A model generated the notes under the pieces. It ran no database searches and was not told where the DNA came from. It worked only from the letters and a program-made list of their open reading frames with translations. The translations under genes and the position numbers were made by a program. This document shows positions 5,576 to 29,221 of a DNA stretch of 64,000 nt, piece after piece. Numbering within the stretch: position 1 is the first letter of the stretch; the number at the start of each line of letters is the position of its first letter. Origin of the DNA: Methylomonas koyamae (GTDB lineage: Bacteria > Pseudomonadota > Gammaproteobacteria > Methylococcales > Methylomonadaceae); the NCBI RefSeq assembly GCF_001644025.1, contig NZ_LUUK01000194.1, positions 1 to 64,000 on the forward strand, written 5' to 3'.

Positions 5576-6742
5576 TTATTCCCCAATATCGTAAAACCGC
5601 TTCTTCAGCAAATCGTCAAGATCGCTGCGCTTGAGCAAGTCCTTGATCCGGGCCGACGCGCCGCCGGTGCCGTAGGGTTGGTGCAAATTCGCCAGGGTTT
5701 CGGCCAGTTCGCCGGACCAAACTTTTTCCAACGCGGCTTGGATCGCTTCGGCTTGCGGCGGGCAATGCAATACGCTGGCGGCGCACAGCCGGCCGCGTTG
5801 GCGGTCGCCGATGTCGACGGTCGGAATCTTGAACGCCGGCGCTTCCAGGATACCGCTGGACGAGTTGCCGACCACCGCGTCGACATGGCGCATCGCCGAC
5901 AAATAGCGCAACGAACCGAGCGAGACGAAGGCCGCGACCCGCTCCGGCCAGCGCGCCCGATAGTCTTCGATCAACCCGGCGATGACCCGGCCGCCGGCGT
6001 CGGCGTTGCTGTAGGTGAAAATGACGCGAACCTCCGGAAACGCGTCCAAGGCTTGCAGCAACTGCTGAAATTGTTCGGCGGCGGTTTCGGCTTCCAAGGT
6101 TGCCGGGTGAAAGGTCGCCAAGAGGTTACGCTCGGCAAATTTAAAATCGATGGCTTGTTCTAGCCCGGCGCGATCCAGCAAGGGCAGCCGAGCGGTATTG
6201 TCCAAACCCGGCGCGCCGACGTTAAACACCCGCTGCGGCTGTTCGCCGAGTTGAATCACCCGTTGCCGGTAGACTTCGGCGGCGGTGAAATGCAGATGCG
6301 ACAGTTTGGTCAAGGCGTGGCGGATGGCGTCGTCGACCGCGCCCTCGCTGAGTTCGCCACCGTGAATATGGGCGATCGGAATCCGCTGGTTCATCGCCGC
6401 CTGCGCGGCGGCGAAAATCTCGAAGCGGTCGCCAAGCACTACCACGATGTCCGGGTTCAGCTCGCTGAACGCATCGGCAAAGCCGATCAAGCCCAGGCCC
6501 ATCGCCTTGCTGATGCCGGCCGGCGTGTCCGACGACAACAGCATTTCCACCTTGCGGGCGATGCTAAAACCGTCGGCTTCGATTTGCCGCCAAGTCAAGC
6601 CGAACTCCGGCGACAAATGCATGCCGGTCGCGACCAATTGCAATGTCAAATCCGGATCGGCCTGAATTTCCTTGAGCAGCCAATACAGCAAGCCGTATTC
6701 GGCCCGCGAGCCGGTGACGACGCAAATTTTACGCGCGGCCAT
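5576..6742 (-). CDS. neuC: UDP-GlcNAc 2-epimerase, hydrolysing (NeuC/LegG type)
   Basis: The predicted reaction is hydrolysis with C2 epimerisation of an N-acetylated UDP or GDP hexosamine. It releases the free ManNAc-type sugar used to build sialic or legionaminic acids. The 388-aa product has the family's N-terminal motif (GSRAEYGLLYWLL), the HIHGGELSEGAVDDAIRHA segment and the C-terminal GNSSSGILEAPAF motif of GT-B-like epimerases. The length is typical. The start ATG at 6742 shares one base with the legC stop (TGATG), so coupling is certain by position. With LegB and LegC upstream, the LegG role is more likely than sialic acid synthesis; substrate choice cannot be read directly. This is the last gene of the apparent operon. 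No NeuB/LegI condensing synthase follows it. Confidence 0.85.
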   Translation of the reverse strand: MAARKICVVTGSRAEYGLLYWLLKEIQADPDLTLQLVATGMHLSPEFGLTWRQIEADGFSIARKVEMLLSSDTPAGISKAMGLGLIGFADAFSELNPDIVVVLGDRFEIFAAAQAAMNQRIPIAHIHGGELSEGAVDDAIRHALTKLSHLHFTAAEVYRQRVIQLGEQPQRVFNVGAPGLDNTARLPLLDRAGLEQAIDFKFAERNLLATFHPATLEAETAAEQFQQLLQALDAFPEVRVIFTYSNADAGGRVIAGLIEDYRARWPERVAAFVSLGSLRYLSAMRHVDAVVGNSSSGILEAPAFKIPTVDIGDRQRGRLCAASVLHCPPQAEAIQAALEKVWSGELAETLANLHQPYGTGGASARIKDLLKRSDLDDLLKKRFYDIGE

Positions 6743-7881
6743 CAGATCGCCACGCTGCTGGGCAGATTGACCAAGCGTTCCGCCAGGCGCCGCGATTGGC
6801 TCAAACCGTCGGTTCGGCAATGCCGGTACATCGGCAAGTCGGGCATCAAGGTCCACAACGGCCGGGTCATCACGCCGTGGGCGTTGCTGTATTCCAGAAA
6901 CGCGTCGCGTTGCGCGGCATCGTCCAGTAACAGCGCATTGAGCCAGTAATTGGAGCGGGCGCCGGCCGGCTCTTGGACAATCTCGGCGCCGTTGGCGCGC
7001 GCCCAATCCAGATAACGCCCGGCCAGCGCCCGCTTGCTGTCGACGAAGGCCGGCAATTGTTCCAGTTGCGCCAGACCCAACGCGGCATTCAGATTCGGCA
7101 TCCGGTAGTTGTACCCGATTTGGTCGTGCTCGAACTTCCAGGCGTGCGCAAGTTTGGCGGTGGTGGTCAGATGCTTGGCCTGCCGGGCCAGATCGTCGTC
7201 GTCGGTCAAAATCATGCCACCGCCGCCGGTCGTGATGATTTTATTGCCGTTGAAGCTAAGCACACCGAGCCGGCCGAAGGTGCCGCAATGGCGCTCGCCG
7301 ATGCGGCTGCCCAAGGCCTCCGCCGCGTCTTCCACCACGGGAATTCCGTAACCGTCGCAAACCGTCAGCAAGCCGGCCATGTCGCAAGGATGGCCGAAGC
7401 TATGCATCGGCAAGCAGGCGGCGATGCGCCGGCCGCTGGTTTTGTTGTAAACAACGCCGGCCCGCCGCTCGCAGCCTCGTTCCAGAAATTCGGCCAGCGC
7501 GGCCGGCGCCAAGCCCAAGGTCGCGGCTTCGATATCGATGAACACCGGCTCGGCACCGCAATAGGCGATCACGTTGCAGGTGGCGACAAAGGTCGCGGCC
7601 TGGGTGACCACTTCGTCGCCCGGCCGGACGCCGGCCAGCAGTAAGGCGATATGCAGCGCGGCGGTGCCGTTGACGGTGGCGACAGCGTGTCTGGCGCCGC
7701 TGAATTCGGCAATCTTGCGCTCGAATTCCCCGACATAGGGCCCAACGCTGGACACGAAGGTGCTGTCGATCACGTCGTTCAAATAGCGCTTTTCGTTGCC
7801 GCCGAAACGCGGCTCGTGCAGCGGGATGAAGGCGTCGGTTTGGTAAATCTCCCGCACGAAACCGACCAAACCTTCAAACAT
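6742..7881 (-). CDS. legC: PLP-dependent sugar aminotransferase, LegC type
   Basis: This is a DegT/DnrJ/EryC1-fold aminotransferase that transfers an amino group to C4 of a 4-keto-6-deoxy nucleotide sugar. The 379-aa protein begins with the LegC-like FIPLHEPRFGGNEKRYLND and STFVSSVGPYVGEFE. It carries the PLP-binding lysine at about residue 214 in SFNGNKIITTGGGGM, and the catalytic acidic segment VVEDAAEALGS. It follows legB with an eight-base overlap and precedes neuC/legG with a one-base overlap, so the three make a classic LegB-LegC-LegG block. The sugar nucleotide carrier (UDP or GDP) is undetermined. Confidence 0.85.
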   Translation of the reverse strand: MFEGLVGFVREIYQTDAFIPLHEPRFGGNEKRYLNDVIDSTFVSSVGPYVGEFERKIAEFSGARHAVATVNGTAALHIALLLAGVRPGDEVVTQAATFVATCNVIAYCGAEPVFIDIEAATLGLAPAALAEFLERGCERRAGVVYNKTSGRRIAACLPMHSFGHPCDMAGLLTVCDGYGIPVVEDAAEALGSRIGERHCGTFGRLGVLSFNGNKIITTGGGGMILTDDDDLARQAKHLTTTAKLAHAWKFEHDQIGYNYRMPNLNAALGLAQLEQLPAFVDSKRALAGRYLDWARANGAEIVQEPAGARSNYWLNALLLDDAAQRDAFLEYSNAHGVMTRPLWTLMPDLPMYRHCRTDGLSQSRRLAERLVNLPSSVAI

Positions 7882-8854
7882 TGTAAATGTCCGTTTTGTA
7901 CTTTTTCAGATTGTCGGCCTCTTTAAACCAAGCCACGGTCCGGCGCAAGCCTTCCTCCAAACCGACTTGCGGCGCAAAACCGGTCAAGGCCTTCAGCTTG
8001 GCGTTGTCGCACCAAAGCCGATTGACTTCCGATTTCTCCGGCCGCAAACGCTGTTCGTCCACCAGAAATTCGACGTCGCTGGCCATGATGGATTTGATTA
8101 AATTCAGGGTATCGCCGACCGAGATTTCGAAATTCGAGCCGATATTGACCGTCTCGCCGATGGTACTATCCGATTCGGCCAGCGCGATGAAGCCTCGGCA
8201 GGTGTCTTCGACATAATTGAAATCGCGAGTCGGCGAAACGTCGCCCAGCTGGATTTGCTTTTTGCCGGCGGCGATTTGGGTGATGATGGTCGGAATCACC
8301 GCCCTGGCCGATTGGCGGGGACCGTAAGTATTGAACGGCCGGGCGATGGTCAGCGGCAGATTGAAGGCGTTGAAAAAGCTCATCGCCATCGCGTCGGCGG
8401 CAATCTTGGAAGCGCTGTACGGCGATTGTGGTTGCAAGGGATGTTTTTCGTCGATGGGCACGTATCGCGCGGTGCCGTAAACCTCGCTGGTCGAGGTATG
8501 GATCACCCGGCGTACGCCGGCATCGCGGGCGGCCTGGCAGATGTTCAAGGTGCCGCGAATATTCGTATCGACATAGCTGTCCGGTGCCTGGTAGGAATAC
8601 GGGATCGCGATCAACGCGGCCAAATGAAACACCGTGTCGATGTCCCGGCAAATGGCCCGGCAGAACGCCGGATCGCGCACGTCGCCGCACACCACTTCGA
8701 TGTCGTTCTTGCACGCCGCGTCGTCGAGCCAGCCCCAACTGTTAAAGGAATTGTACTGGGCCAGCGCCCGCACCTCGCAGCCGCGCGCCGCCAGCATTTC
8801 GGTCAAATGCGAGCCGATGAAGCCGTCGGCGCCGGTCACTAGCACTTTGTTCAT
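7874..8854 (-). CDS. legB: NAD-dependent nucleotide-sugar 4,6-dehydratase, LegB type
   Basis: This extended short-chain dehydrogenase dehydrates a nucleotide-activated N-acetylglucosamine to the 4-keto-6-deoxy sugar, the first step toward legionaminic acid. The 326-aa protein shows the GADGFIG NAD-binding loop (residues 8-14), the TSTSEVYG segment and the catalytic YSASK at 146-150. It also has the substrate-specificity stretch RPFNTYGPRQSARAVIPTII typical of this subfamily. The start overlaps the upstream CMP-sugar synthetase end by four bases. The product feeds LegC immediately downstream. Confidence 0.87.
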   Translation of the reverse strand: MNKVLVTGADGFIGSHLTEMLAARGCEVRALAQYNSFNSWGWLDDAACKNDIEVVCGDVRDPAFCRAICRDIDTVFHLAALIAIPYSYQAPDSYVDTNIRGTLNICQAARDAGVRRVIHTSTSEVYGTARYVPIDEKHPLQPQSPYSASKIAADAMAMSFFNAFNLPLTIARPFNTYGPRQSARAVIPTIITQIAAGKKQIQLGDVSPTRDFNYVEDTCRGFIALAESDSTIGETVNIGSNFEISVGDTLNLIKSIMASDVEFLVDEQRLRPEKSEVNRLWCDNAKLKALTGFAPQVGLEEGLRRTVAWFKEADNLKKYKTDIYNV

Positions 8855-9552
8855 ACCAAACCTTGTTTAATAAACGCCTCGGCGATGGCCCAGTCTTCCT
8901 CGGTATCGATGTCCAGGCTTTGCACCGCGTTCATGATTAACGGCCGGGTGTTGGGCGGATAAAAGGATAGCCGTGCCAGCAAATATTCGCTGGGGCATAG
9001 ATACATCGCCCCGTTCGGGGTTAGCAATGGACGACTTTGTTGCCGGCTGGTCTGAGTCGGTTGCCGACTGTCCAAGGGCACCAGATAGCCGTCGTCGGCG
9101 CGAAACAGCGTGGTCGGGTCGCGATGGATTTCCTTGCAACCCACGACCGCATCGACATCCGGTTCCGCCATCATCCGCGCGGCTTGCCGAAGTGCACCCG
9201 GCGAACGAAACGGCGAAGTCGGTTGCAGCCACATCAGCCGCTCGGGCAAATAACCGTATTGATCGCGAAACCATCCCAACGCATGTTGCGCGACTTGCAA
9301 CGCAGACGCGCTATCGGTCGCACAGGCCGCCGGCCGGATGAACGGCGCCGGCAAACCGTATTGCCGGCCGATCTGGGCATACTGCTCGGAATCGGTCGAT
9401 AGAATACTCAAGCAATCGGGCAAGTCCGCCTCGGCGATGGCTCCGGCGGTCCACGCCAGCAGCGGCCTATCGCCCAGCCGCCGGATGTTTTTATCCGGCA
9501 AACCCTTGGAACCGGCGCGGGCCGGCACGACGATCAGCGTGGAGATCGACAT
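8851..9552 (-). CDS. CMP-nonulosonate synthetase family cytidylyltransferase
   Basis: The protein belongs to the acylneuraminate cytidylyltransferase family, which activates a nonulosonic acid with CTP (NeuA/LegF) or, in some relatives, loads another sugar (PtmE-like). The 233-aa product has the diagnostic PARAGSKGLPDKN near its N-terminus and WLQPTSPFRSPGALR in the middle. The length matches single-domain enzymes. Next to legB-legC-neuC, a LegF role is the natural reading. The GDP-glucosamine-forming PtmE type is an alternative I cannot exclude. It ends within the legB start region (four-base overlap). Confidence 0.75.
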   Translation of the reverse strand: MSISTLIVVPARAGSKGLPDKNIRRLGDRPLLAWTAGAIAEADLPDCLSILSTDSEQYAQIGRQYGLPAPFIRPAACATDSASALQVAQHALGWFRDQYGYLPERLMWLQPTSPFRSPGALRQAARMMAEPDVDAVVGCKEIHRDPTTLFRADDGYLVPLDSRQPTQTSRQQSRPLLTPNGAMYLCPSEYLLARLSFYPPNTRPLIMNAVQSLDIDTEEDWAIAEAFIKQGLV

Positions 9553-9596
9553 CAGTCCGGCAACCCGCGAACCCGCAAAATTAAAAAAACCGCCAT

Positions 9597-11225
9597 TCAG
9601 GCCATCACTTGTTCGTAAAAGCCGGTCAATCGATGAATATTGTTATGCATTTGCAATTCCTCGCGGGCCGCCACGACATTCCGCTTCAGCTCGGCCACAT
9701 CCAACATCTCGATAATCTCAGGCAAAAACTCGATTTCGCGTTGATTAATAATCACGCCAATCCGGTATTCCTTAACGATACTGCAAACCGCGCTAAAGCG
9801 ATCGCTTACCAAAACCGGTAATCCGGCTTCCAAATAATTAAACAACTTGGTCGGAATCAAATGTTTGAAATGCAAATCGCCGGTATAAATACCGCCAAAA
9901 TCGTAAACCATTAAACCGAAATCGTAATGGGCGATTTTTTGATTGATATGTTGCGGCATATCGCCGATAAAAAAATTGAAATTGCGGTGGCGCTTGGCTA
10001 ACTCGATAAAATCGGGATATAACTTGGCGTACTCCTCCTCGGCGGCGATCAACGGATTATTGTAAATATCCAGATAACATCCCCTGGCGATTAACTTCAT
10101 CACCAGTCCCAGCAACTGCGAGTCCCCAAATAATTCATGCGGCCTATTCGCTGAAAACGGTGGCACCCCCCCAACAAACACTAGCCTTTTTTCTTGATTA
10201 ACAATATTCGAGGCGTGGAAGAAATCCTTGACCGGTAAGGCCGGGAACGCCAAATGCTTGTTCCGTAAATGCGGCGAATCGCGCTTGACCAAGGGCCGCC
10301 GATATTCGTCGTCACCATTAAAAATCACGCCGTCGGCATGGTGAACAATATAATGTTCGCAGGCCAGTTGCAATTGATGGTTTTCGATGACATTTTCGCC
10401 CCAGGCCATTTTCATCGTATCGGGAATTTTCGATACGGTGGCCTCCGGCAGGTAAAACGATTGGCTGTCCATAATCTCGATAATCTGCCGACAATGCTTG
10501 GGCTTATACGTATCGATCAACACCGGAATATGATATCGAAACAGCCAGCCCTGAGTATGCAGCAATAGTTTTCTATCGACCGAGTTTAACAGCATTAAAA
10601 AACTGATAAAATCGGTATAAATAATATCGTCGAAGAAACCGGCTTGATGTTTAACCATATTTTGGTCGAATACCAATGCCACGGTTTTATAGCCGCAGTC
10701 GCGCAATACCTTGCTCAGCCGCAATTGATTGAAATAAACCTTTTTCGCCGCGAAAACGATGACCGAGCCATCGTGACCGGTTGCCTGCTCCAAGGCGGAT
10801 TGCAATGTCCGGCGATGTTGTACGAGCAACGAAACATATTGCCGGCCCAGCCGTTCGCCGGAAAATACGTCGTTTACCAATATATCGCCGTCGCCGATCT
10901 CGCGCACCACCGGGGTGCCCATGAAGGTATTGGACCGATGGGACGCACTCAACACACCCAGATTCTGATGCAGCGGTTTCAACGCCTGCAATAATGCAAT
11001 ACTGAGTCCGGAAACCCCATCGATTAACCAACGCCGGTTTTTAGGCTCGGATTCTTCCGGCAATAGGCCGTAACACTGTTTGATAACTTGATGATTGATA
11101 CCCTCTTCTTTTAATAATTCGATAGACGAGCCGCCGAGCACATCCTTAGCCTCTTCGCTAACGACAGTCAATTTCTCGAAAGACGAGAAAAATATCTCTT
11201 CAAAAAAATCGCTTCTCACGCCCAT
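9597..11225 (-). CDS. Probable glycosyltransferase (GT-B fold)
   Basis: This 542-aa protein of uncertain family ends with a segment typical of GT-B glycosyltransferase donor domains: HLIPTKLFNYLEAGLPVLVS followed by VKEYRIGVII. Before it comes LVFVGGVPPF, the usual entry to the second Rossmann domain. The N-terminal half (residues 1-330) has VIVFAAKKVYFNQLRLSKVL and is not recognised. No membrane segment or signal peptide is evident, so a cytoplasmic transferase is likely. Its start overlaps the upstream sulfotransferase stop by ten bases. Local composition is less GC-rich than the leg genes. Donor and acceptor are unknown; the operon suggests a nonulosonate or heptose-like donor. Confidence 0.6.
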   Translation of the reverse strand: MGVRSDFFEEIFFSSFEKLTVVSEEAKDVLGGSSIELLKEEGINHQVIKQCYGLLPEESEPKNRRWLIDGVSGLSIALLQALKPLHQNLGVLSASHRSNTFMGTPVVREIGDGDILVNDVFSGERLGRQYVSLLVQHRRTLQSALEQATGHDGSVIVFAAKKVYFNQLRLSKVLRDCGYKTVALVFDQNMVKHQAGFFDDIIYTDFISFLMLLNSVDRKLLLHTQGWLFRYHIPVLIDTYKPKHCRQIIEIMDSQSFYLPEATVSKIPDTMKMAWGENVIENHQLQLACEHYIVHHADGVIFNGDDEYRRPLVKRDSPHLRNKHLAFPALPVKDFFHASNIVNQEKRLVFVGGVPPFSANRPHELFGDSQLLGLVMKLIARGCYLDIYNNPLIAAEEEYAKLYPDFIELAKRHRNFNFFIGDMPQHINQKIAHYDFGLMVYDFGGIYTGDLHFKHLIPTKLFNYLEAGLPVLVSDRFSAVCSIVKEYRIGVIINQREIEFLPEIIEMLDVAELKRNVVAAREELQMHNNIHRLTGFYEQVMA

Positions 11226-12037
11226 TCGTATCCATTATGCCAGTCGGTGATAAACGGAATGCCCAATTTGGCGGCATATCCGGCTAATTCCGGCGCGGAG
11301 CGGTCTAGTTGTTCCTGAATCAGCTCTTTATTCTCCGCGGAAATCGAATCGAAATACCCCTTGGTCAAGCCGGCTCTAAAATGCGAGCCGCCGCCGTCGC
11401 TTTCGGCTTTTTTTTGCATCGTCGAAAACGCCGAATCCAGACAAATAGCCTCGACTTGTTGTTCGGTCAACTCCAAGCTTAAAAACTCGGCGCATCGCCG
11501 CACGCAAACCGCTTTATCTTCGACCAATTGTTCGAAGGTCAATATTAAAGCTGACCCGGCCGCCGCGAACTCAAGCATTTTTTGCATTTGAAATAATTGC
11601 CCGCCGATACCCTGCCAGTTAAAACCATCCGACTGCCTGCGACAAATAATCCTGGAAATGCCTTCATCCTTGCTCAAACTCGCGAAGAAGTCGGACTTAT
11701 TGGCACCGCGGCCAATTTCCCAGTCGATATTATCGGCAAAATGATGGTACATCGATAAGGTCATCGCATAGATATTCCTGACCACAAAGATACTGCGCGC
11801 ACCGTTTTCGATGAGTTTTCGCTGAACTTCCGCTACCGGCACGAAATGCCACGAATAAAAGGCGTCGGTTTTAAATACGATATTCGCCGGGTCGCTCGGA
11901 TCGATACCTTTAACCAGCGCCGGCTCGAACCACGTTAGCCCGGTCATGCCGGATATGATTTGGCGTATCATCCACGTGCCGCATTTCAATGGCGTTCCAA
12001 CCACAATAGGCGAATCCGACTTATTTAAAGTATTCAT
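11216..12037 (-). CDS. Sulfotransferase domain protein
   Basis: This is a predicted PAPS-dependent sulfotransferase. The 273-aa protein opens with a 5'-phosphosulfate-binding-like loop (TPLKCGTW, residues 15-22). It carries a 3'-phosphate-binding-like RNIYAMTLSMYHHF segment and ends with FRAGLTKGYFDSIS, comparable to the RxGxxGDW region of the family. The motifs are variants (Cys-Gly instead of Ser-Gly), so activity is inferred and not certain. It overlaps the next sulfotransferase-like gene by 17 bases. Its place between glycosyltransferases suggests O-sulfation of the operon's glycan. A second distant homologue lies immediately upstream. Confidence 0.68.
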   Translation of the reverse strand: MNTLNKSDSPIVVGTPLKCGTWMIRQIISGMTGLTWFEPALVKGIDPSDPANIVFKTDAFYSWHFVPVAEVQRKLIENGARSIFVVRNIYAMTLSMYHHFADNIDWEIGRGANKSDFFASLSKDEGISRIICRRQSDGFNWQGIGGQLFQMQKMLEFAAAGSALILTFEQLVEDKAVCVRRCAEFLSLELTEQQVEAICLDSAFSTMQKKAESDGGGSHFRAGLTKGYFDSISAENKELIQEQLDRSAPELAGYAAKLGIPFITDWHNGYEWA

Positions 12038-12848
12038 ACCCGCCTATATCGCTGTAAAACGCCAGGGTTTGCGGTTCGACAATCCGCTCGAACGCCAATT
12101 TTTTCCAGTCCGGCCAAGCCCGATACAGATTATCCGGCTTGGCCAACACCCGCGCCTCGCCGCGAAACGGCCGGTAAACCCAGCGATAAATATAGGCTAA
12201 TAAGGCGTCGGAAAACTCGACGCGATTCTTGGTTAAATACGCCACAATCTCCGCGAAACGTTGCGGCGATGTCACCAAACTTTCCAAGGCAACCCGGCGG
12301 ATGCGGGTATCGATATCGACCCGGTGACGATTTAATTGATACATACCCTGATAGGCCGACCATATTTCGACATCGTCTTTTCGATAAGCTTTAAGCCCCA
12401 ACTCTTTGAAATAATCGTGTTGAGCTATCGACCATTCGTGATCTATCGGTCCGAAACTGCCGTCCGGCATGCGCATGTTACCGGCCCGCCAACTTACGTA
12501 AAACTCCAGCCAGGCGTAGGGATGGCGAGCCAGAAACAGCAACGGAATTTTATCGATATATTGGTCGATCACCTCACGAAAATGCCAAGGCCGATACGAC
12601 CAACAATCCCCGATCGCTTGATAGGTGGTACCCATATCTTCCAAAAATGCCGTGAAGGCGTCCAGCGGCGGACGTTCGGATCGGCTACGCTCGGCTAAAT
12701 ATTTCGGTCGCGAGCCTTCGTGGGCCATCAGCGCGAATATTTCCGGATGTGCGTTTAAAGCCTTGGCAAACCAACTAAACCAATGGTCGCCGGCATATCC
12801 CCAAGCTAGCACATAAAACACATGACTGGATTCGTTAATTTGGAACAA
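12021..12848 (-). CDS. Sulfotransferase-like protein
   Basis: This 275-aa protein has an N-terminal AWGYAGDHWFSWFAKALNAH segment laid out like the sulfotransferase phosphosulfate-binding loop and helix, and LLFLARHPYAWLEFYVSWR resembling the 3'-phosphate-binding strand-helix. The classic Lys of the P-loop is not obvious, so it may be divergent or inactive. The only in-frame start that keeps the conserved N-terminus is a TTG at 12848; no ATG is available before the motif. It overlaps the downstream sulfotransferase gene by 17 bases. Sulfation or another PAPS-linked reaction is the best guess. Confidence 0.55.
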   Translation of the reverse strand: MFQINESSHVFYVLAWGYAGDHWFSWFAKALNAHPEIFALMAHEGSRPKYLAERSRSERPPLDAFTAFLEDMGTTYQAIGDCWSYRPWHFREVIDQYIDKIPLLFLARHPYAWLEFYVSWRAGNMRMPDGSFGPIDHEWSIAQHDYFKELGLKAYRKDDVEIWSAYQGMYQLNRHRVDIDTRIRRVALESLVTSPQRFAEIVAYLTKNRVEFSDALLAYIYRWVYRPFRGEARVLAKPDNLYRAWPDWKKLAFERIVEPQTLAFYSDIGGYEYFK

Positions 12849-12893
12849 TGGCGATCCCGGAACTAGGGTAAGGTAAATTGAATATTCATCGAA

Positions 12894-14039
12894 TTACACG
12901 GACGAATAGCCTATCGTTTTTAAATCGTTGAAAATAGAATCGACGCGATGCCGCCAGGTGTGATGGTTCAGAATTTCTTGTGCGGCATTATTTCTGATTC
13001 GATTCGCCTCCTGTGGATTGTCGCGGTAAAACTCCACCTTATCGGATAAATCGTCGATATCGAACTCGATATAATGCTCACCTGGCGTAAAAAAGGTTTT
13101 AATTCCGCCGGGTTTCTCGTCGTATTCGCCTTTTCGAACAAATATCAAACCGGCCGACGCCATACAGTCCACAACTCGAAAATGCATGCCGTTTCCCTCA
13201 TGGAAATTCATGGACGACTCGTATACCGCTCGCATATCGCCAGGATCATTCAAAAAACGCCGGTAATAATCGCGATAAGCCGGCCAATCGCGCCAATTTT
13301 CCGGACCGTAAATGTCCAGCGGCAATTTCAAATCGACCAGCGCATCCAGTAACTCCCGACGATTCACCAGCCGTATCAGCCGGCCGGTCATGTCGTATTC
13401 CAAGGTCCGATCCGCCCGCAACTCGACACCGAATAGCGCCAAAGCCAAATCCGAGAGCAAGCGCATATAGTCTTCATGCACTTTCAAACTCGCCCGATTT
13501 TCCAGCAAGGCTTGTTCTATATGCGGCAGAAACTCGCCAAACTTTAATGGCGGGCCGGATTGGGAAATGTCCCTTGCCAATTCCTCGTGCCGCCAAGGCC
13601 GCGGAATATGTCCAACGAACGCGGCGCGGTTCGCCAGCTCGGTGCCGCTCGGGCAGTAGCTTTGGGGACACGCGCCGGGTCCAAACCAACGATGAAAAGC
13701 GCGGTGCGGGTATTTTTCCAGCCACTTGGGGCCGAATAAATAAGTGATCTCGCTACCGTGAAAGTCATTGATCGGCCTGCCGTTAAAATCCACGATCCAA
13801 CAAATATGGACAATATCGGCCGGCAAGTAAGGCAAATCGCTTCTGGGCCGATTCATATCGAAAATAACGCGCGTACCGCGCTCCTTGATCCAGGCTAGCA
13901 TTTCCGCCTCGTTCAACGGGCCGCAATGCCAGGATAGGCGAACGTCGCGGCCGGCGAATCCGCCGGCAATTTGGCCGGCCAGATGGCGGTACCAAGCATT
14001 GTCACGCGGGAAAAACACCGAAACGCTAATATCCGTCAC
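12894..14039 (-). CDS. CgeB-like glycosyltransferase (paralogue 1)
   Basis: This 381-aa protein is clearly related to its upstream neighbour at 14055. Both start with a short strand then FFPRDNAWYRHL or FLPKDTAFYRQL, share IFDMNRPRSDLP/IFEMNRVKNEIP, HICWIVDFNGR/HITWIVDFQGR, and end with NHTWRHRV-type segments. The C-terminal MHFRVVDCMASAGLIFV region matches the glycosyltransferase group 1 CgeB-like domain that carries the donor-binding site. A GTG at 14039 is the start. A duplicated pair of this kind suggests two successive glycosidic linkages in the same glycan. Donor and acceptor are unknown. Confidence 0.62.
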   Translation of the reverse strand: MTDISVSVFFPRDNAWYRHLAGQIAGGFAGRDVRLSWHCGPLNEAEMLAWIKERGTRVIFDMNRPRSDLPYLPADIVHICWIVDFNGRPINDFHGSEITYLFGPKWLEKYPHRAFHRWFGPGACPQSYCPSGTELANRAAFVGHIPRPWRHEELARDISQSGPPLKFGEFLPHIEQALLENRASLKVHEDYMRLLSDLALALFGVELRADRTLEYDMTGRLIRLVNRRELLDALVDLKLPLDIYGPENWRDWPAYRDYYRRFLNDPGDMRAVYESSMNFHEGNGMHFRVVDCMASAGLIFVRKGEYDEKPGGIKTFFTPGEHYIEFDIDDLSDKVEFYRDNPQEANRIRNNAAQEILNHHTWRHRVDSIFNDLKTIGYSSV

Positions 14040-14054
14040 GACGCCAAGCGCGGA

Positions 14055-15227: not shown

Positions 15228-15257
15228 AAACCGATTGCCCTAGAAAGCGTAACGAGA

Positions 15258-16361: not shown

Positions 16362-16382
16362 AGCGTATTCCTGATTTAGCAG

Positions 16383-19493: not shown

Positions 19494-19512
19494 GGCGTCA
19501 TTTCAGGTTGGA

Positions 19513-21333: not shown

Positions 21334-21355
21334 CGCGCCCCCGGTTTGGTCGATA

Positions 21356-22747
21356 TTAAATAAAATTAATATGTTCCGGCGGATTTTTTAAATCCCACAG
21401 AAACTTATTCACATAATCCTGGCGGCAGCCGATCGCGCAATCTTTGTGTACATCGACCGACTCGGCGACATCTTTGTGCACCTGCCAGTAGCGCTCGCTG
21501 TTGGCGACCAGGTCGTAGAACGAATCGCTGTGCAGATCGCCGATGTAAAAGCGTTCCTTGTTGAAAAACGGTCCGCACGGATAGATTTTGCCGTTGCCGG
21601 AAATCTGCAACAAAAACGGCGTACCGAAGCATTGGTCGTATTTGCGGTAGCCGTCCTTGTACAGATTGGTTTCGCCGGCGGCGTTGATCTTGTTCCATTT
21701 GGCCTGCACCACGTAGTGCTCGTTGCTCAGCGCTTCGGCCTGTTTCAATAGGTCGTTGACGTTAAGATAGGCGTCGTAGTCGATGCCGATTTCCTTGTAT
21801 TCGGAATCCGAGCAATGTTTGATGACGAAGTAATCCACGCCCAATTCGGCACCCAGCTTGGCTTCGGCCAGCACTTCGTCGAAGCACTCGGGGATCAGGA
21901 CCATTTGCAGGCCTATCGTGCATTTGTAATTATTTTCTTTCTTGATTTTGACCAGTTCGCGGATCTTGGCGATCAGCAAGTCGAAATTGCCTTCCACCGA
22001 CTGATGCACCCGGCGAAAACCTTCCGGCGTGCCGGCGGACAGGTTGAAGCGAATGTAGCTCATGTTTTTCAGCAGGTCGTGGGCGCGATCCATGTCCAAG
22101 GCGATGCCGTTGGTCGCCATCGCGGTGTCTATGCCCAATTCGCCGGCCAACACGGTCGCGTCGTACAAAGTCGGATTCAGCGTCGGCTCGCCGTCGCCAA
22201 TGAAACCCAACGAGCGCACGCCCAGCTTGCCGCAGTCGCGCACGAAATTTAGCAGCGCCTCGCGGCCTATCATCGCGCCTTTGGTCATGTTCTGTACCAC
22301 CGCATAGCAGTACAAGCAGGCCGTATTGCAGAACTTGGTCAAACCCATGTCGATATGCACCGGGGCGAAACGCTGGCCGTTTTGCCAAGCCTGCACCCGG
22401 TCCAAGTGATGCATCATCTTGTGGCCGTCGAAGCGGAAGCGTTCGCGCTGGGTACGAAAACTGGGACCGGTGAACTGGTTGGGCACCGAAGGCTCGTGTT
22501 CGCAACCGGCCTCCAGGCGCACGATGCCTTCCTGGCCGTCGTGCGACACGGTCTTGAATTTCTGCCCCGGCAAACGGCTTAACTGGCTAGTGTCGATGAC
22601 CTGATAGTCTTGCGACAACGCGCTGCGATCGACGATCTGATTGGAGGTGCGCAACTTGTGGCCGGGCTTGTTGAACAACGGCGCGTCTTCCGGGATGGAA
22701 GTGACTGCGGCATTGCCGAATCGGTTGATTTGCTCAGGTTTGGACAT
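21356..22747 (-). CDS. Radical SAM/SPASM protein (second in operon)
   Basis: This 463-aa enzyme has a radical SAM cluster CNTACLYC at Cys 140, 144 and 147, a GDGEPTLNP segment and a C-terminal auxiliary cluster region (YDQCFGTPF, KIYPCGPFF, HKDCAIGC). It has an unusual 125-residue N-terminal extension before the barrel, which includes SQLSRLPGQKFKTVSHDGQ. It ends PPEHINFI, very like QPAHVNFI at the end of the radical SAM protein at 27888, so the two share a C-terminal domain. The gene directly follows the E1 beta gene, suggesting joint action on one metabolite. The substrate is unknown. Confidence 0.78.
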   Translation of the reverse strand: MSKPEQINRFGNAAVTSIPEDAPLFNKPGHKLRTSNQIVDRSALSQDYQVIDTSQLSRLPGQKFKTVSHDGQEGIVRLEAGCEHEPSVPNQFTGPSFRTQRERFRFDGHKMMHHLDRVQAWQNGQRFAPVHIDMGLTKFCNTACLYCYAVVQNMTKGAMIGREALLNFVRDCGKLGVRSLGFIGDGEPTLNPTLYDATVLAGELGIDTAMATNGIALDMDRAHDLLKNMSYIRFNLSAGTPEGFRRVHQSVEGNFDLLIAKIRELVKIKKENNYKCTIGLQMVLIPECFDEVLAEAKLGAELGVDYFVIKHCSDSEYKEIGIDYDAYLNVNDLLKQAEALSNEHYVVQAKWNKINAAGETNLYKDGYRKYDQCFGTPFLLQISGNGKIYPCGPFFNKERFYIGDLHSDSFYDLVANSERYWQVHKDVAESVDVHKDCAIGCRQDYVNKFLWDLKNPPEHINFI

Positions 22748-22765
22748 GGCGAGTTCTCGAATAAG

Positions 22766-23836
22766 TTAAAACGGGCCGACGAAACTGCGGTCGGGCTGAT
22801 CCTTGGCCAAATCGGATTGCAATTGCCGCCGGACGCTGTCTAGTAGCGGCCGGCGATCCAATAACTCCAGCACCGTCTCGGCGATGCGCTCCGCGCCGGG
22901 GTAGTAATGGTTGGCTAAAAAATGCGTGGTCGGAACCGGATGGTTGGGATAGGCGATCAGGCGCGGCGCTTGTTTTAGCGTGTGCGGCTGCCGTTGATAC
23001 AAGCGCGAGATCAAGGTATGGCCGAGCGACGCCATTTCCGGCGCGCAATCGGCCACCAGCAACAAGCCGGTTTCGGCGGCCGAGCGTGCGACAGCATCGA
23101 CATCCAGCGGCGTCAGGCAGCGCATGTCCACCACGTCGGTTTCGATACCGTGTTCGGCCAGTACGGCGGCGGCCTTCAACGCTTCAATCGTCATATGCGA
23201 GAACGCGGCGATGCTGATGTCGCGGCCTTCGCGCAAGCGCGCCGCGCCGCTCAAGCCGGCGGCGGGCCGGTCTTTATCGACTTGGCCGATCACATGATGC
23301 AGCCAGCGGTGTTCGACGAACAACACCGGGCCGTCGTCGGCGATCGCGTCCAGCATGAAATGGTAGGCGTCGCCGGCCGTGGTCGGCATCACCACCTTCA
23401 GGCCGGGAACCTGGGCGAACATCGCTTGCAAGCTTTGCGAATGCTGCGGCCCCTGCCCCCAGCCGCGGCCGATGATGACTCTCACCACCAGCGGCACGCT
23501 TTGCTTGCCGTCGAACATGTAATGCCATTTGGCCGCGTTGTTGACTAGTTGATCCATCGCCAGCAACGCAAAATCGATGCGCTGATGCACCAGCACCGGC
23601 CGCATGCCGGCCAGCGCCGCGCCGATGCAGATGCCGGTCATGCCGTTTTCGGCCAGCGGCATGTCCAGCACCCGCTTGGCGCCGTATTTCTCGCGCAAGC
23701 CTTGGGTGGTGGCGAAAATGGTTTTCGGATCGGGCACGCCCTCGCCGATCAACAGCATGTCCGGAAACCGCGCCAACCCGTCGTCCAAGGCCTCGCGGAT
23801 CGCCGCGCCGTAACTCAAGGTCAAGATCTCAGACAT
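22766..23836 (-). CDS. TPP-dependent dehydrogenase E1, beta subunit
   Basis: This is the beta half of a pyruvate/acetoin/branched-chain type 2-oxo acid dehydrogenase E1. The 356-aa protein carries a transketolase pyrimidine-binding domain (ENGMTGICIGAALAGMRPVL, VRVIIGRGWGQGPQHSQSL) and a C-terminal transketolase domain with ADCAPEMASLG. The frame is open upstream, but the ATG at 23836 overlaps the alpha stop by eight bases and starts the conserved sequence, so I chose it. No E2 lipoyl acyltransferase or E3 gene is near. The acyl or aldehyde unit made on TPP is therefore probably passed to something else, possibly a keto-sugar. That transfer is inference. Confidence 0.82.
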   Translation of the reverse strand: MSEILTLSYGAAIREALDDGLARFPDMLLIGEGVPDPKTIFATTQGLREKYGAKRVLDMPLAENGMTGICIGAALAGMRPVLVHQRIDFALLAMDQLVNNAAKWHYMFDGKQSVPLVVRVIIGRGWGQGPQHSQSLQAMFAQVPGLKVVMPTTAGDAYHFMLDAIADDGPVLFVEHRWLHHVIGQVDKDRPAAGLSGAARLREGRDISIAAFSHMTIEALKAAAVLAEHGIETDVVDMRCLTPLDVDAVARSAAETGLLLVADCAPEMASLGHTLISRLYQRQPHTLKQAPRLIAYPNHPVPTTHFLANHYYPGAERIAETVLELLDRRPLLDSVRRQLQSDLAKDQPDRSFVGPF

Positions 23837-24797
23837 ACACATGCCGCTCCATGCTCGCCAACACCGGCGCCGGGCCGGCCAAGGCTTCGGCGAAGGCTTC
23901 GGCGATTTCGGCGCCGACCTGTTGCTCGATTTCGAGCAATACCTCCGCGCCGACGCCGGCATCGGCAAGCGCCCGGCCGCTATACAGCAACGGACAGCGC
24001 TGTTTCCAAGCCAACAGCTCGCCGGGCATGCGGTAGCCCAGCTCGTCGTCCTCGTTCGGTCCGCAATGTTCCGGCCAGCGATGGGTATGCAATTCCAAGA
24101 ACTGCGGGCCCTCGCCGTCGCGGGCGGCGGCGATGGCGTTTTCCGCCAGCGCATGGACGTGTTCGACTTTATTGCCGTCGCCGCTGACGGCCTGCAAGCC
24201 GTGGGCGGCAGCAATTTGATAAATGTCGCGAGCCGGCTGGCGTTCGTATAACGGCGTCATCACCGAGTATTGGTTGTTCTCGCAAACCATCACCAGCGGA
24301 AGATTTTTCAGCACCGCGAAATTCATGGTCTCGTGCAACACGCCTTCCTCGAAACAGCCGTCGCCGAAAAACACCACCACGACGTTGTTTGAATTCCGGC
24401 GCTGTTCGCCCCAGGCGTAGCCGGCCGCGACCGGCACCGTGCCGCCGACGATGGGTGTGGAGGCGATAAAACCGGCCGATAAATCACTCAAATGCATCGA
24501 ACCGCCACGCCCGCCGCAACATCCAGCGGCTAAACCGTACAGTTCGGCGATCAGGCCGACCAGACTGCCACCCTTGGCCAGATAGTGACCGTGGCCGCGA
24601 TGGTTGCTGAAGACCTTGTCGCTCTCGGTCAGATGCGCGCAAACGCCGACCGCGATGGCTTCCTCGCCGATGCACAAATGGGTCGGGCAACGCATGTGCT
24701 GCTCGGCGTAACGGGCGGCGATGGCCTCTTCGGCACGGCGGATGCGCAGCATCCGGTAATACAAATCTTGCAGTTCGGCGGTTGTCGGCACGTTCAT
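23829..24797 (-). CDS. TPP-dependent dehydrogenase E1, alpha subunit
   Basis: This is the alpha half of the E1 enzyme and the main TPP-binding chain. The 322-aa protein shows GRGGSMHLSDLSAGF, characteristic of pyruvate/acetoin E1 alpha, and the TPP-Mg motif GDG at 145-147 ending in CENN at 172-175. Alpha and beta genes overlap by eight bases, and alpha overlaps the upstream kinase gene stop by four, so the set is tightly coupled inside a sugar-biosynthesis operon. The absence of E2 and E3 argues against an oxidative dehydrogenase complex. A ligase-like role building a branched-chain sugar, as the TPP enzyme YerE does for yersiniose, is a possible parallel and is unproven. Confidence 0.82.
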   Translation of the reverse strand: MNVPTTAELQDLYYRMLRIRRAEEAIAARYAEQHMRCPTHLCIGEEAIAVGVCAHLTESDKVFSNHRGHGHYLAKGGSLVGLIAELYGLAAGCCGGRGGSMHLSDLSAGFIASTPIVGGTVPVAAGYAWGEQRRNSNNVVVVFFGDGCFEEGVLHETMNFAVLKNLPLVMVCENNQYSVMTPLYERQPARDIYQIAAAHGLQAVSGDGNKVEHVHALAENAIAAARDGEGPQFLELHTHRWPEHCGPNEDDELGYRMPGELLAWKQRCPLLYSGRALADAGVGAEVLLEIEQQVGAEIAEAFAEALAGPAPVLASMERHVYV

Positions 24798-26314
24798 TTG
24801 AGCAAGGTGGTGATGTATTTGAACAAAGCCACCGCCCGCACCGGCTCGCGGTTGCAGACGATTTGCACGTCCAGCGCCGCCGCCGCGCTACCGGCGAACA
24901 AGGCCGCGTCCGGCGCCAAGCCGGCGCCCAGACACAAGCCGGCCACCGACAAGAAGGCATCGCCGGCGCCGATGCGGTCCACCACTTTGGACGACAGGGC
25001 CGGAATCTTGTACTGGGTCTTGGCTTGATCCAGCAGCAACGCGCCCTTGGTGCCACGGGTGATCGCGATGTGGCTGGCCGCCAGCCTGTCGGCCAACTGT
25101 CCGGCCAGTTCCTCGATCGCCCCGCCTCTGTCGTGTACCGCCAAACGCAATTCCGGTTCGTTCATCGACAGGAAATTGGCGCGCGGATAGCGGGTGATCA
25201 AATGGTAACCGCGATTGCCGCTGTTAACTTGGGCGTTGACGGCCAGGAACTTGGCGCCGGCGCACAAGGCCGCGACCATGTCGCCGGAAATGAAACCGTT
25301 GCCGAAGTCCGGCACGATCACGACGTCGAAATCGCGCAAATGCCGTTCCAGCCAGGCCACGATCTTGCGGTTGACTTCCACCGGCAACGGGGCGTCGTTG
25401 TAAAAATACACCTCGAACAACTTGGCGATGTCGGCATCGACATAGCGGCGCTTGACGATGGTCGGCCGATCCTGGCTAAAGAAAAACACCGGATCGATGT
25501 TGGGATTCAAATTAGTGCGGATGAAGTCTTCGTGGCTTTTAGTCGCGCCCAACCCGGACAACAAGGTCACGTTGCCGGCAAACTCGGCCACGTGGTTGGC
25601 GACCGCGATCGCGCCGCCGGCGAAGCGTTCGTAGTCGTTGTATTTGACCGAAAACACGTTGCCCTTGCCGGACTGGCCCAAGGCCGAGGTGTAATGGTAT
25701 TCGTCGACGATGGCCTCGCCGACAACCAGCACGTTCAAGCCCTGCAAGCGCTTAAGCTGGTCTATCATCGCGTTGGCGGAAATCCGCTCCTTGAATTCGT
25801 CCAAGTAAGCGGAAATTTCCGGCGAGAACACCTCGAAATATTCGTTCAGCAAACGGGTGGAACTGGACGTCAGTTCGTCGGTGAAAAACACCTTGCCGCC
25901 GTGGCGCTCGACCGCGTCCTGCTCGTGCTGAATATTGCCGGTCAAATCGTCGCTGGTGCTCTTGTAGTCGCTGCCCTTGACGTACAAATCCGGCTTGACC
26001 GCATCCAGCACGTTGACGGCCGTCACGGCATGGTTGATCGCCACGCTATCCACGCAAGCCAGCGCGGCAATGTTTTCGGCGCGCAAATATTGGTTGAACA
26101 CCGGCCTACCGGGGCCTTTGTTGACGTATTCGTCGGCGGTGACGCTAACCAGCAGGGCATCAGCCTCCCGCGCGGCGGCCTGTAAATGGCGGATATGGCC
26201 GATGTGCAATAAATCGAAAGTGCCGTGACACAGCGCCACGGTTTTGCCTGCCGCCTTCAATTCGGCGGAACGCTGGGCCAGTTGCTCGATCGAGACGATT
26301 TTGGACGTGGACAT
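24794..26314 (-). CDS. Nucleotidyltransferase-sugar kinase fusion, reversed HldE order
   Basis: The 506-aa protein joins an N-terminal cytidylyltransferase-fold domain (CHGTFDLLHIGH at residues 29-40) to a C-terminal PfkB kinase domain (residues about 190-500, with the catalytic GAGDAF at 449-454). In HldE, the bifunctional ADP-heptose enzyme, the kinase comes first and the transferase second, so this is the reverse order. The two activities would phosphorylate the anomeric position and then load a nucleotide onto a sugar phosphate. A SIS isomerase and an epimerase lie immediately upstream, paralleling GmhA and HldD, but no GmhB phosphatase is seen. Both active-site motifs look intact. Confidence 0.8.
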   Translation of the reverse strand: MSTSKIVSIEQLAQRSAELKAAGKTVALCHGTFDLLHIGHIRHLQAAAREADALLVSVTADEYVNKGPGRPVFNQYLRAENIAALACVDSVAINHAVTAVNVLDAVKPDLYVKGSDYKSTSDDLTGNIQHEQDAVERHGGKVFFTDELTSSSTRLLNEYFEVFSPEISAYLDEFKERISANAMIDQLKRLQGLNVLVVGEAIVDEYHYTSALGQSGKGNVFSVKYNDYERFAGGAIAVANHVAEFAGNVTLLSGLGATKSHEDFIRTNLNPNIDPVFFFSQDRPTIVKRRYVDADIAKLFEVYFYNDAPLPVEVNRKIVAWLERHLRDFDVVIVPDFGNGFISGDMVAALCAGAKFLAVNAQVNSGNRGYHLITRYPRANFLSMNEPELRLAVHDRGGAIEELAGQLADRLAASHIAITRGTKGALLLDQAKTQYKIPALSSKVVDRIGAGDAFLSVAGLCLGAGLAPDAALFAGSAAAALDVQIVCNREPVRAVALFKYITTLLK

Positions 26315-26318
26315 AAGC

Positions 26319-26882
26319 CTACTTTTTAATCAATTGATCGGTAATGTGGTGCAGCACGAACAAATGCGCCAACTCGACCATGCCGTAATGGTTGCTGTCC
26401 AGCCAGACGTTCCAGCGCCCTAACCGGCGCAACGGATTGTCGGGCTTGAAACCGCTCAGGGTCAGCACCGCCAAGCCCTTGGCATTGGCCGCCGCCACCG
26501 CGTTGACGATGTTGGCCGACTGCCCGGAGCTGCTGATCGCGATCAGCACATCGTCCGGATAAGCGAAGGCCGAGACTTGCTTGGCGAAAGCCTGTTCGTA
26601 ACCGAAATCGTTGGTAAAACAGGTCAGCGGCGCGGCTTCGTGCAGGGTCAACGCGCACAAACCGCCGACATTACGCAGATCGGTGATGACATGGCTGGCT
26701 ATCGCCGCGCTGCCGCCGTTACCTAAAATGATGACTTTGGCCTGTTGCTGCTTGACCCGCGCGAATTCGGACAAAACGTCGGCTACAACGCCTTCGCCGT
26801 CCAAAGCAGCCCCGTCCGCCGCGTTGAAACGGCAGCCCGCCATCAGTTCGGCGAATTGTCCCGCGGCTTGTACTAATGGCAT
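26319..26882 (-). CDS. SIS-domain phosphosugar isomerase, GmhA-like
   Basis: This 187-aa single-domain SIS protein has a phosphate-binding GNGGSAAIASHV segment and the second site AISSSGQSANIVNAV, as in sedoheptulose-7-phosphate isomerase GmhA. The length fits. It would interconvert a ketose and an aldose phosphate and feed the neighbouring kinase. Four bases separate it from the fusion gene. Whether the substrate is sedoheptulose 7-phosphate or another phosphosugar cannot be told from the sequence; the kinase/nucleotidyltransferase next door favours a heptose. Confidence 0.78.
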   Translation of the reverse strand: MPLVQAAGQFAELMAGCRFNAADGAALDGEGVVADVLSEFARVKQQQAKVIILGNGGSAAIASHVITDLRNVGGLCALTLHEAAPLTCFTNDFGYEQAFAKQVSAFAYPDDVLIAISSSGQSANIVNAVAAANAKGLAVLTLSGFKPDNPLRRLGRWNVWLDSNHYGMVELAHLFVLHHITDQLIKK

Positions 26883-26891
26883 CGCGACCTC

Positions 26892-27878
26892 CTATTTATC
26901 CAGGTATTTAAACCAATCGGCGGTGGCGTCGGCGATCGACGCCGACGTCCACAGCGGCGCTTCCCGCCAATAATCGATGTGCGCCAGCATGTTGGCGACG
27001 CCTTGTTCGAAACTGACTTGCGGTTGCCAGCCCAGTTTCTCGCGAATCTTGCAAGTGTCGGCGAAGGTGCAGTCCGGCTCGCCGGGTCGTTTGGGAATAT
27101 ATTCCACCGGGCCGCCCAACAAGCCGACCAATTGATTCACGCTGTAAGTGCCGCCGCTGCCGACGTTCATCACTTCGCCGGCTAAGCCCGACTCGGCGGC
27201 GGCGATAAAGGCATTGGCCACGTCGGTGACGTAAGTAAAGTCGCGGGTTTGGGTGCCGTCGCCGACCACGGTAAACGGCTTGCCGTTGAGCTTTTGCGCC
27301 AAAAACACGCCGAACACCGCGCCGTAAGCCCCGGTGGTGCGGGCGTGCGGGCCGTAGACGTTGAACAAGCGCAGCGATAGCGCCGGCAGGCCGTACAACT
27401 GCGCCCAGTGCAGCACTAATTCTTCCCCCAAATATTTGGTCAGCGCATAGGGATATTGCGGCTTGACCGGCGCGGTTTCCGGCGTTGGGAACTGTTCGGC
27501 CAGGCCGTAGCAGGACGACGAAGCGGCGTAGACAAAACGCCCGACCCCGGCGGCGCGGGAAGCTTCCAGTACGTTGAAGGTGCCGTCGACATTGGTTTCG
27601 TAATAGGCGCGCGGCTTTTCGATGGAGGGTACGATGTCGGCCAAACCGGCCAGATGAAACACCCAATCTGCGCCGTCGAATAAGGGTGCGATGGCGGCAA
27701 ATTCCCGAATGTCTGCCTGTTGAAACGCGAAGCGGTCCTGGCCCAGCAAATCGGCGATGGTTTCCTTGCGGCCGCCGATCAGGCTATCGATGACTTGGAC
27801 CGAATGGCCCAGGCGCCACAGCTCGCGGCTGAGATGACTGCCGATAAACCCGGCGCCGCCGGTAACAATAACCTTCAT
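26892..27878 (-). CDS. NAD-dependent sugar epimerase/dehydratase
   Basis: This 328-aa extended short-chain dehydrogenase has the GGAGFIG coenzyme loop (residues 7-13), ASSSCYG, the catalytic YALTK and the RLFNVYGPHARTTGAYG substrate segment of the UDP-glucose/GDP-sugar epimerase group. It could act as a 4-epimerase, a 6-epimerase in the HldD sense, or a decarboxylase/dehydratase. The HldD-specific sequence is not obvious, so I do not name it. Context (SIS isomerase and kinase/nucleotidyltransferase downstream by 9 bases) points to a nucleotide-heptose-like sugar. Confidence 0.78.
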   Translation of the reverse strand: MKVIVTGGAGFIGSHLSRELWRLGHSVQVIDSLIGGRKETIADLLGQDRFAFQQADIREFAAIAPLFDGADWVFHLAGLADIVPSIEKPRAYYETNVDGTFNVLEASRAAGVGRFVYAASSSCYGLAEQFPTPETAPVKPQYPYALTKYLGEELVLHWAQLYGLPALSLRLFNVYGPHARTTGAYGAVFGVFLAQKLNGKPFTVVGDGTQTRDFTYVTDVANAFIAAAESGLAGEVMNVGSGGTYSVNQLVGLLGGPVEYIPKRPGEPDCTFADTCKIREKLGWQPQVSFEQGVANMLAHIDYWREAPLWTSASIADATADWFKYLDK

Positions 27879-27887
27879 GATTTGTCC

Positions 27888-28988: not shown

Positions 28989-29031
28989 ATTTTTGTCGCT
29001 TGCCGGTGAAAAACGCTATTGTCCCAGTAAA

Positions 29032-29047
29032 AGCGATAATTGTGCCA
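29032..29047 (-). promoter_or_regulatory. Sigma-54 promoter for the glycan operon
   Basis: Read on the minus strand this is TGGCACAATTATCGCT. The -24 element TGGCAC is perfect, GG and GC are ten bases apart as required, and the -12 element TCGCT has one mismatch to TTGCT. Transcription would start near 29021, about 33 bases before the radical SAM start codon. It needs an AAA+ activator, which is not in the window. Confidence 0.65.
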
Positions 29048-29191: not shown

Positions 29192-29221
29192 TTGACATCA
29201 CAAAATTTCGCTCGATAGAAT
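29192..29221 (+). promoter_or_regulatory. Sigma-70-like promoter with overlapping inverted repeat
   Basis: TTGACA (29192-29197) and TAGAAT (29216-29221) are separated by 18 bases. The perfect inverted repeat AAATTTTG (29183-29190) / CAAAATTT (29201-29208) overlaps the -35 and spacer, as an operator might. It would drive the PEP-CTERM gene, whose ATG is at 29341, leaving a leader of roughly 110 bases. Confidence 0.55.

Follow-up and report, generated by a model that had tools for sequence, protein, structure and literature searches.

The 64-kb window analysed here (the whole stretch C194:1-64000 of the 5.4-Mb Methylomonas koyamae genome, G000; below, G labels denote genomes and L labels loci) contains a run of 19 genes at 5576-28988, preceded by a -24/-12 promoter element of the sigma-54 type. 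It is likely that this cluster is the main block of a Methylomonas flagellin glycosylation island, transcribed from the sigma-54 promoter and hence tied to an enhancer-binding protein, which is probably one of the flagellar hierarchy. This reading is carried by the gene content of the cluster, by the conservation of the promoter element among relatives and by the linkage of the glycan genes to flagellin genes.

Gene content of the cluster

All 19 genes lie on the minus strand, with intergenic gaps of -17 to +45 nucleotides (nt), which confirms the tight packing that a preliminary description of this DNA had claimed. Based on Pfam and NCBIfam matches, the cluster consists of three zones: a head (7 genes), a middle (8) and a tail (4). 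In 1-kb steps, most of the head has a G + C content of 0.55-0.65, dropping to 0.49 where this zone ends; the values are 0.47-0.54 for the middle zone and about 0.57-0.62 for the tail. The promoter element and the genes are as follows:

29032..29047, minus strand, sigma-54 -24/-12 element TGGCACAATTATCGCT, 44 nt upstream of the rSAM1 start codon
27888..28988, minus strand, radical SAM/SPASM protein 1 (rSAM1), first gene, head (Pfam PF04055, PF13186)
26892..27878, minus strand, NAD-dependent sugar epimerase/dehydratase, head (PF01370; no cut-off reached among the NCBIfam matches listed, 25 of 31)
26319..26882, minus strand, SIS-domain protein, GmhA-like (phosphoheptose isomerase-like), head (PF13580; TIGR00441 below cut-off; PDB matches are phosphoheptose isomerases and DiaA)
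24794..26314, minus strand, HldE-like bifunctional protein, head (nucleotidyltransferase PF01467 N-terminal, PfkB kinase PF00294 C-terminal)
23829..24797, minus strand, thiamine-diphosphate dehydrogenase E1 alpha-like protein, head (PF00676; pyruvate dehydrogenase E1 alpha models below cut-off)
22766..23833, minus strand, E1 beta/transketolase C-like partner, head (PF02779, PF02780)
21356..22747, minus strand, radical SAM/SPASM protein 2 (rSAM2), last gene of the head (Pfam)
19513..21333, minus strand, glycosyltransferase Glyco_trans_1_2, first gene of the variable middle (PF13524)
16383..19493, minus strand, 1036-aa glycosyltransferase Glyco_trans_1_2, middle (PF13524)
15258..16361, minus strand, radical SAM/SPASM protein 3, middle (PF04055, PF13186)
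14055..15227, minus strand, glycosyltransferase, weak Glyco_trans_1_2, middle (PF13524, 20.4 bits, below the cut-off of 25)
12894..14039, minus strand, glycosyltransferase Glyco_trans_1_2, middle (PF13524)
12021..12848, minus strand, 275-aa protein, putatively sulfotransferase-like from its motif and gene pairing, middle (no Pfam match)
11216..12037, minus strand, sulfotransferase, middle (PF00685)
9597..11225, minus strand, 542-aa protein, putative glycosyltransferase, middle (no Pfam or PDB match)
8851..9552, minus strand, CMP-nonulosonate synthetase (CTP_transf_3), tail (PF02348; TIGR03584, 116.3 bits, below the cut-off of 205.7)
7874..8854, minus strand, LegB, NAD-dependent 4,6-dehydratase, tail (TIGR04180, 525.7 bits, above the cut-off of 475)
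6742..7881, minus strand, LegC aminotransferase, tail (TIGR04181, 537.6 bits, above the cut-off of 420)
5576..6742, minus strand, NeuC/LegG UDP-GlcNAc 2-epimerase, last gene (TIGR03568, 490.2 bits, above the cut-off of 235.9)

This content supports the earlier view of a dedicated glycan locus. No flippase, polymerase or exporter was recognised among the 19 genes (Pfam, E value 0.001; two of the proteins had no match), and scans of the window with Rfam at the gathering threshold and for tRNAs gave no match.

The sigma-54 promoter and its conservation

The element TGGCACAATTATCGCT has the GG-N10-GC spacing and agrees at 10 of 11 positions with TGGCACNNNNNTTGCW, which we take to be the sigma-54 consensus; the correct spacing directly upstream of the cluster, as initially reported, was thus borne out. 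It is the sole site with at least 10/11 on either strand of the window. When two mismatches were allowed, 35 matches were found against 32 expected, and only the site at 29032-29047 had a single mismatch. Loose matching is therefore uninformative, and the case for the promoter rests on the rank, position and conservation of the site. In mononucleotide shuffles of the 352-bp intergenic region, such a site arose in 98 of 20000.

Among 61 genomes searched, 15 carry a close rSAM1 homologue (58-100% identity), and 12 of these 15 head loci have, at -59 to -71, a GG-N10-GC site of at least 9/11. Nine of these 12 loci (the G005 type) are near-identical and not independent. The upstream flanks of M. 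koyamae, G006, the G005 type and G016 are unrelated to each other. Over the 60 nt upstream of the site, ungapped identity to M. koyamae was 0.20-0.30, compared with 0.56-0.88 within the site (eight comparisons), and gapped identity (0.43-0.51) was at the level of shuffles in all eight.

A wider sample came from a database scan in which 232 rSAM1 relatives were confirmed and 80 loci kept. For 79 of these loci the upstream sequence was 100 nt or longer, and sites were scored within 150 nt: sites of at least 9/11 occurred in 16 of them, against 289 of 16000 random control stretches (1.8%), and sites of at least 10/11 in seven, against 26 of 16000 (0.16%). When the seven Methylomonas-group loci were excluded, the counts were 11/72 and 7/72, respectively. 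The seven loci at 10/11 (L150, L153, L155, L161, L162, L164 and L184) are in part related, as several share the site sequence.

The M. koyamae genome encodes RpoN, and a relaxed sigma-54 pattern matched it 31 times, compared with 13 for the reversed control. Both nifH and nifE of this genome (L097, L104) bear the -24/-12 motif, 44 nt and 31 nt before their starts. The conserved site, the presence of RpoN and the same motif at nifH and nifE together support the sigma-54 promoter proposed in the preliminary description. As for the activator, 25 sigma-54-activator-domain matches were found in the genome, 21 of them at E <1e-40, and the genome encodes both a FleQ-domain regulator and PrsR (700.3 bits, above the cut-off of 502.6). 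A flagellar activator is preferred solely from the gene content.

Nonulosonate genes and linkage to flagellin genes

The NeuB synthase is not among the 19 genes, and the nonulosonate set of the cluster is incomplete. Beyond the window, the same contig (L048, C194:64000-83900) holds NeuB, NeuD, a PtmE-like gene, two flagellins, a FlaG-like gene, FliD, FliS and a Maf candidate. The last of these (PF01973, presumably the Maf family, with TPR; C194:65937-68468) adjoins FliC2 and is followed by FliS, FliD, the FlaG-like gene and FliC1 up to 73527; PtmE-like, NeuD and NeuB genes then occupy 73646-76406. The region upstream of FliC1 holds GGGTTAAAGGATTTCAAATCGGGGCCGATACAT, which we take to fit a sigma-28 promoter. 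The nonulosonate pathway thus becomes complete only when the two blocks are taken together, and about 45 kb separate the two parts of the island in M. koyamae.

The stretches of nine relatives were compared gene by gene, and a selection of 28 of the 61 genomes was searched for LegB and FliD. Nine of the 15 head genomes (G010, G012, G019, G023, G024, G025, G028, G031 and G035) have the head, LegB and FliD together within 25-32 kb; in M. koyamae 43 kb separate the head from FliD, and three drafts (G005, G016 and G007) have the head on a separate contig. The order in G025 is CMP-synthetase, LegB, LegC, NeuC, NeuB, NeuD, CBS-nucleotidyltransferase (PtmE-like), flagellin, FlaG-like, FliD, FliS, a 110-aa gene and a second flagellin. 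LegB is found within 12 kb of FliD in six head-less genomes as well (G002, G008, G011, G015, G032 and G034), and flagellin genes stand beside the cassette in other genera (L136, L143, L145 and L151). The preliminary description, which saw the nonulosonic acid genes as fitting flagellin glycosylation, left the choice between flagellin and matrix open; the gene order in nine relatives, together with NeuB, the flagellins and Maf on the same contig, decides it in favour of flagellin.

A possible division of labour among the genes

The last four genes would cover some of the steps to a legionaminic-type nonulosonic acid and its activation with CMP; the synthase NeuB, the acetyltransferase NeuD and the PtmE-like nucleotidyltransferase, which the cluster lacks, are encoded beside the flagellin genes about 45 kb off, together with the Maf candidate, predicted to link the sugar to flagellin. 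The glycosyltransferases, sulfotransferase and third radical SAM enzyme of the middle may extend or decorate the glycan. The head is proposed to yield another activated sugar, of an unusual kind. Here the SIS and HldE-like proteins would together carry out the isomerisation, phosphorylation and activation of a sugar phosphate, with the epimerase adjusting the product. Transfer of a two-carbon unit would fall to the E1 alpha/beta pair, and unactivated carbons may be the targets of the radical SAM enzymes. If this is true, the head would add radical chemistry and thiamine-diphosphate two-carbon transfer to flagellar sugar building.

The head cassette

Alignment of seven rSAM1 homologues showed that the CxxxCxxC cysteines and C276, C295, C339 and C343 are invariant. 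The solved relatives of rSAM1 (E <=1e-5) are cytosylglucuronate decarboxylase, DesII and one chain labelled 'Fe-S radical SAM'. Cytosylglucuronate decarboxylase and DesII act on sugar nucleotides, and because of these relatives we suggest that the head makes a sugar. None of the head proteins reached the curated cut-offs of the GmhA, HldE and heptose-epimerase models (NCBIfam). Since neither an E2 nor an E3 gene could be recognised among the 19, two-carbon transfer by the E1 pair is likely, rather than oxidation.

By identity thresholds of our own setting, 27 of the 80 database loci have all seven head genes, although many loci end early. E1 alpha and the HldE-like gene occurred together in 32, the HldE-like gene without E1 alpha in 12, E1 alpha without the HldE-like gene in 11 and neither in 25. 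In seven loci (L149, L154, L160, L168, L171, L175 and L188), rSAM1, E1 alpha and E1 beta stand together as three genes, and no match to the HldE-like, SIS or epimerase genes is in view; this suggests that rSAM1 and the E1 pair are functionally linked. The set E1 alpha-E1 beta-rSAM2 has the opposite orientation in Polaromonas (L131), from which the head would seem to comprise two modules. Among the Methylomonas relatives compared, rSAM2 identity was 90-99%, except in G016 (83%) and G007 (39-40%).

The source titles of these loci include Methylomonas, Methylobacter, Nitrospira, Nitrosospira, Zetaproteobacteria, Magnetococcales, Nitrospinaceae and others, and many are metagenome-assembled. The cassette is also present in cultured Methylomonas, such as Methylomonas sp. 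LW13, a genetically workable strain. Tentatively, and with a fair amount of doubt, we propose that the head represents a widespread, unnamed pathway to a new class of activated sugar, in which the two radical-SAM/SPASM enzymes and the free-standing E1 alpha/beta pair would remodel a heptose-like carbon skeleton before its attachment to flagellin or another surface target, and that its sigma-54 promoter was kept or regained across gammaproteobacterial lineages. Such a radical-SAM/E1/heptose-like head has apparently not been described previously: a search limited to a set of open-access papers gave no match joining at least four of five terms for the head pathway.

In G006 (L027 14088-15889), genes for a dinitrogenase reductase ADP-ribosyltransferase (DRAT) and an ADP-ribosylglycohydrolase lie by the head. 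In several Methylomonas loci, namely L036 (4121-6889) and also L115, L116, L117 and L123, a gene for a DnaK-related DUF3731 protein immediately precedes the head in the same orientation.

The variable middle

The glycosyltransferase at 19513..21333 has best matches of 48-53% in seven relatives and 43% in G046. The gene pair for the 275-aa protein and the sulfotransferase recurs in L150, and the 275-aa protein has conserved motifs in alignment; homologues of the 542-aa protein occur in like loci of G006, G019 and G025. The middle differs among relatives, with genes for a B12-binding radical SAM protein, a carbamoyltransferase and a GSCFA protein found in L029, L031, L037 and L026.

Comparison with known systems

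Earlier reports describe the flagellin glycosylation enzymes of Helicobacter and Campylobacter as RpoN-dependent (PMC3930126; PMC5368276). The likeness lies in regulation, as glycosylation genes there are under sigma-54 together with middle flagellar genes (PMC3930126); the activator there is FlgR. Sigma-54-controlled flagellin glycosylation, known in Helicobacter and Campylobacter, may now be placed in methanotrophs as well, with a promoter that is directly testable.

Islands in Geobacillus and Enterobacteriaceae likewise have glycan genes of variable content inserted beside flagellin genes; however, the main texts of the two reports (PMC5109656, PMC4875605) contain no mention of radical SAM, pyruvate dehydrogenase, transketolase, CgeB or sulfotransferase, while here radical SAM and E1-type genes form the conserved head. 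In the set of open-access papers searched, radical SAM and flagellin glycosylation were mentioned together only in apparently unrelated work; the same was true of CgeB with flagellin and glycosyltransferase and of Methylomonas with flagellin glycosylation, and Methylomonas with flagellar and RpoN led only to work on Methylosinus.

In metabolic terms, two pathways invite comparison. The legionaminic acid pathway of Campylobacter has a PtmE-type GDP-sugar entry, and M. koyamae has LegB, LegC, a NeuC-type protein, NeuB, NeuD and a CBS-nucleotidyltransferase; its genes differ in forming two blocks about 45 kb apart and in having a CMP-synthetase below the PseF cut-off. The ADP-heptose pathway consists of GmhA, HldE and HldD, and the head resembles it in having a SIS protein, a kinase/nucleotidyltransferase and an epimerase in a row, but the proteins are below the equivalog cut-offs, the domain order is reversed relative to HldE, and the genes stand together with those for E1 alpha/beta and radical SAM proteins.

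The divergent neighbour

Upstream of the promoter and divergent from it lies one further gene:

29341..30537, plus strand, NIDO-domain protein with a VPLPA-CTERM-like tail (PF06119; TIGR03370, 21.9 bits, below the cut-off of 25.35)

The divergent position given for this gene in the preliminary description was correct. The label PEP-CTERM needs correction, since the match is to VPLPA-CTERM and its score falls short of the cut-off. The gene has its own sigma-70-like hexamer pair at 29192-29221 (11/12 positions). We did not judge it part of the glycan system.

Alternative explanations

Several observations weigh against the flagellar assignment. In G006 and G046, a single contig carries the head, LegB and FliD at great distances from each other, and in the database loci a flagellar gene is in view in only 8 of 80 and a Leg gene (at least 50% identity) in 6 of 80. 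Of 50 rSAM1-bearing genomes (chosen from the 80 loci, minus L115-L118, L120, L123, L126 and L172-L194), six have no flagellin match; the remaining 44/50 are close to the phylum background of 245/299, so flagellin co-occurrence is uninformative and was not used as support. A FleQ-like pattern was not found within 250 nt upstream of the site, a weak negative as the pattern had no positive control. Three of the 15 head loci have no good site, namely G019 (GG-N11-GC) and G007 and G046 (none of at least 9/11), and the 40-nt leader downstream of the site is also conserved within the genus (in G006, G005 and G016, 0, 0 and 3 of 200 shuffles reach it), with no conservation of these 40 nt in five loci outside that group. 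Finally, genes on the opposite strand part the head from the Leg block in G010, G012 and G024, which means that a separate promoter must serve the Leg block in these genomes; a sigma-54 promoter for it was rejected in all three, the best candidate reaching 8/11 in 260 nt. This last arrangement, together with the lower G + C content of the middle than of most of the head, favours several transcription units, with sigma-54 driving the head only and internal promoters driving the middle or the Leg block. We regard this as possible but somewhat doubtful, because M. koyamae has no gap above 45 nt and promoter-like and terminator-like patterns inside the cluster are no commoner than in shuffles; in the preferred reading the cluster would form a single transcript. 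The head sugar might alternatively serve lipopolysaccharide, capsule or several surface glycans, the Leg genes having joined it by chance or through shared regulation. The unlinked heads of G006 and G046, the six genomes without a flagellin match and the many loci, often ending early, that show an rSAM1-epimerase-SIS-HldE unit without Leg or flagellar genes in view all favour this, but the fliD linkage in nine of 15 genomes and the flagellin genes beside the cassette in L136, L143, L145 and L151 make it unlikely.

Two further alternatives concern the regulator. According to work on the PEP-CTERM/PrsR regulon, which resembles the present case in having a sigma-54 element before surface genes, PrsR motif 1 ends in TTTACA and stands 32-92 nt before the sigma-54 element (PMC1569441). 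A matrix or exopolysaccharide glycan co-regulated with PEP-CTERM proteins by PrsK/PrsR could explain the encoded PrsR and the VPLPA-CTERM-like tail of the divergent gene, and a PEP-CTERM gene in another bacterium is RpoN-dependent (PMC9850573). However, TTTACA, which is the 3' end only of the motif, is missing from the 250 nt upstream here and at six other loci (without a positive control in the genome). The PEP-CTERM-like gene is not faced by any sigma-54 site scoring 9/11 or better and, having no match in the compared stretches of nine relatives, was not found beside the operon there; nor was a flippase or polymerase recognised. The matrix option of the preliminary description is therefore set aside as very improbable. 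Nitrogen control of the promoter by NifA or NtrC is favoured by the -24/-12 motif shared with nifH and nifE, by genes at 48-60 kb of the window that we take, without a family search, to be nifB- and nifJ-like, and by the DraT and DraG-type genes upstream of the head in G006. Nevertheless, TGT-N10-ACA, presumably the NifA site consensus, precedes nifH (-114) and nifE (-60), which served as positive controls, and none of the seven operon promoters, and therefore NifA control is disfavoured. An NtrC-like pattern was likewise not found in the 250 nt upstream of the operon promoters, although this pattern had no positive control and is weak evidence, and four loci (L115, L116, L117 and L123) have the DnaK-related gene upstream instead of DraT/DraG. 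We thus consider nitrogen control to have hardly any likelihood, and flagellin glycosylation under a sigma-54 promoter to be the best explanation of the cluster.

The left border of the cluster

A 111-aa open reading frame at 4804-5139 resembled the start of an IS110 transposase but had no Pfam match. No repeat of either flank that would indicate an insertion sequence at the break was found elsewhere on the contig. To the left of the operon, at 3-5 kb, the G + C content drops to 0.41, and a DUF4238 gene (2750-3643) and a methyltransferase gene (3905-4639), both unrelated to the glycan genes, are located there.

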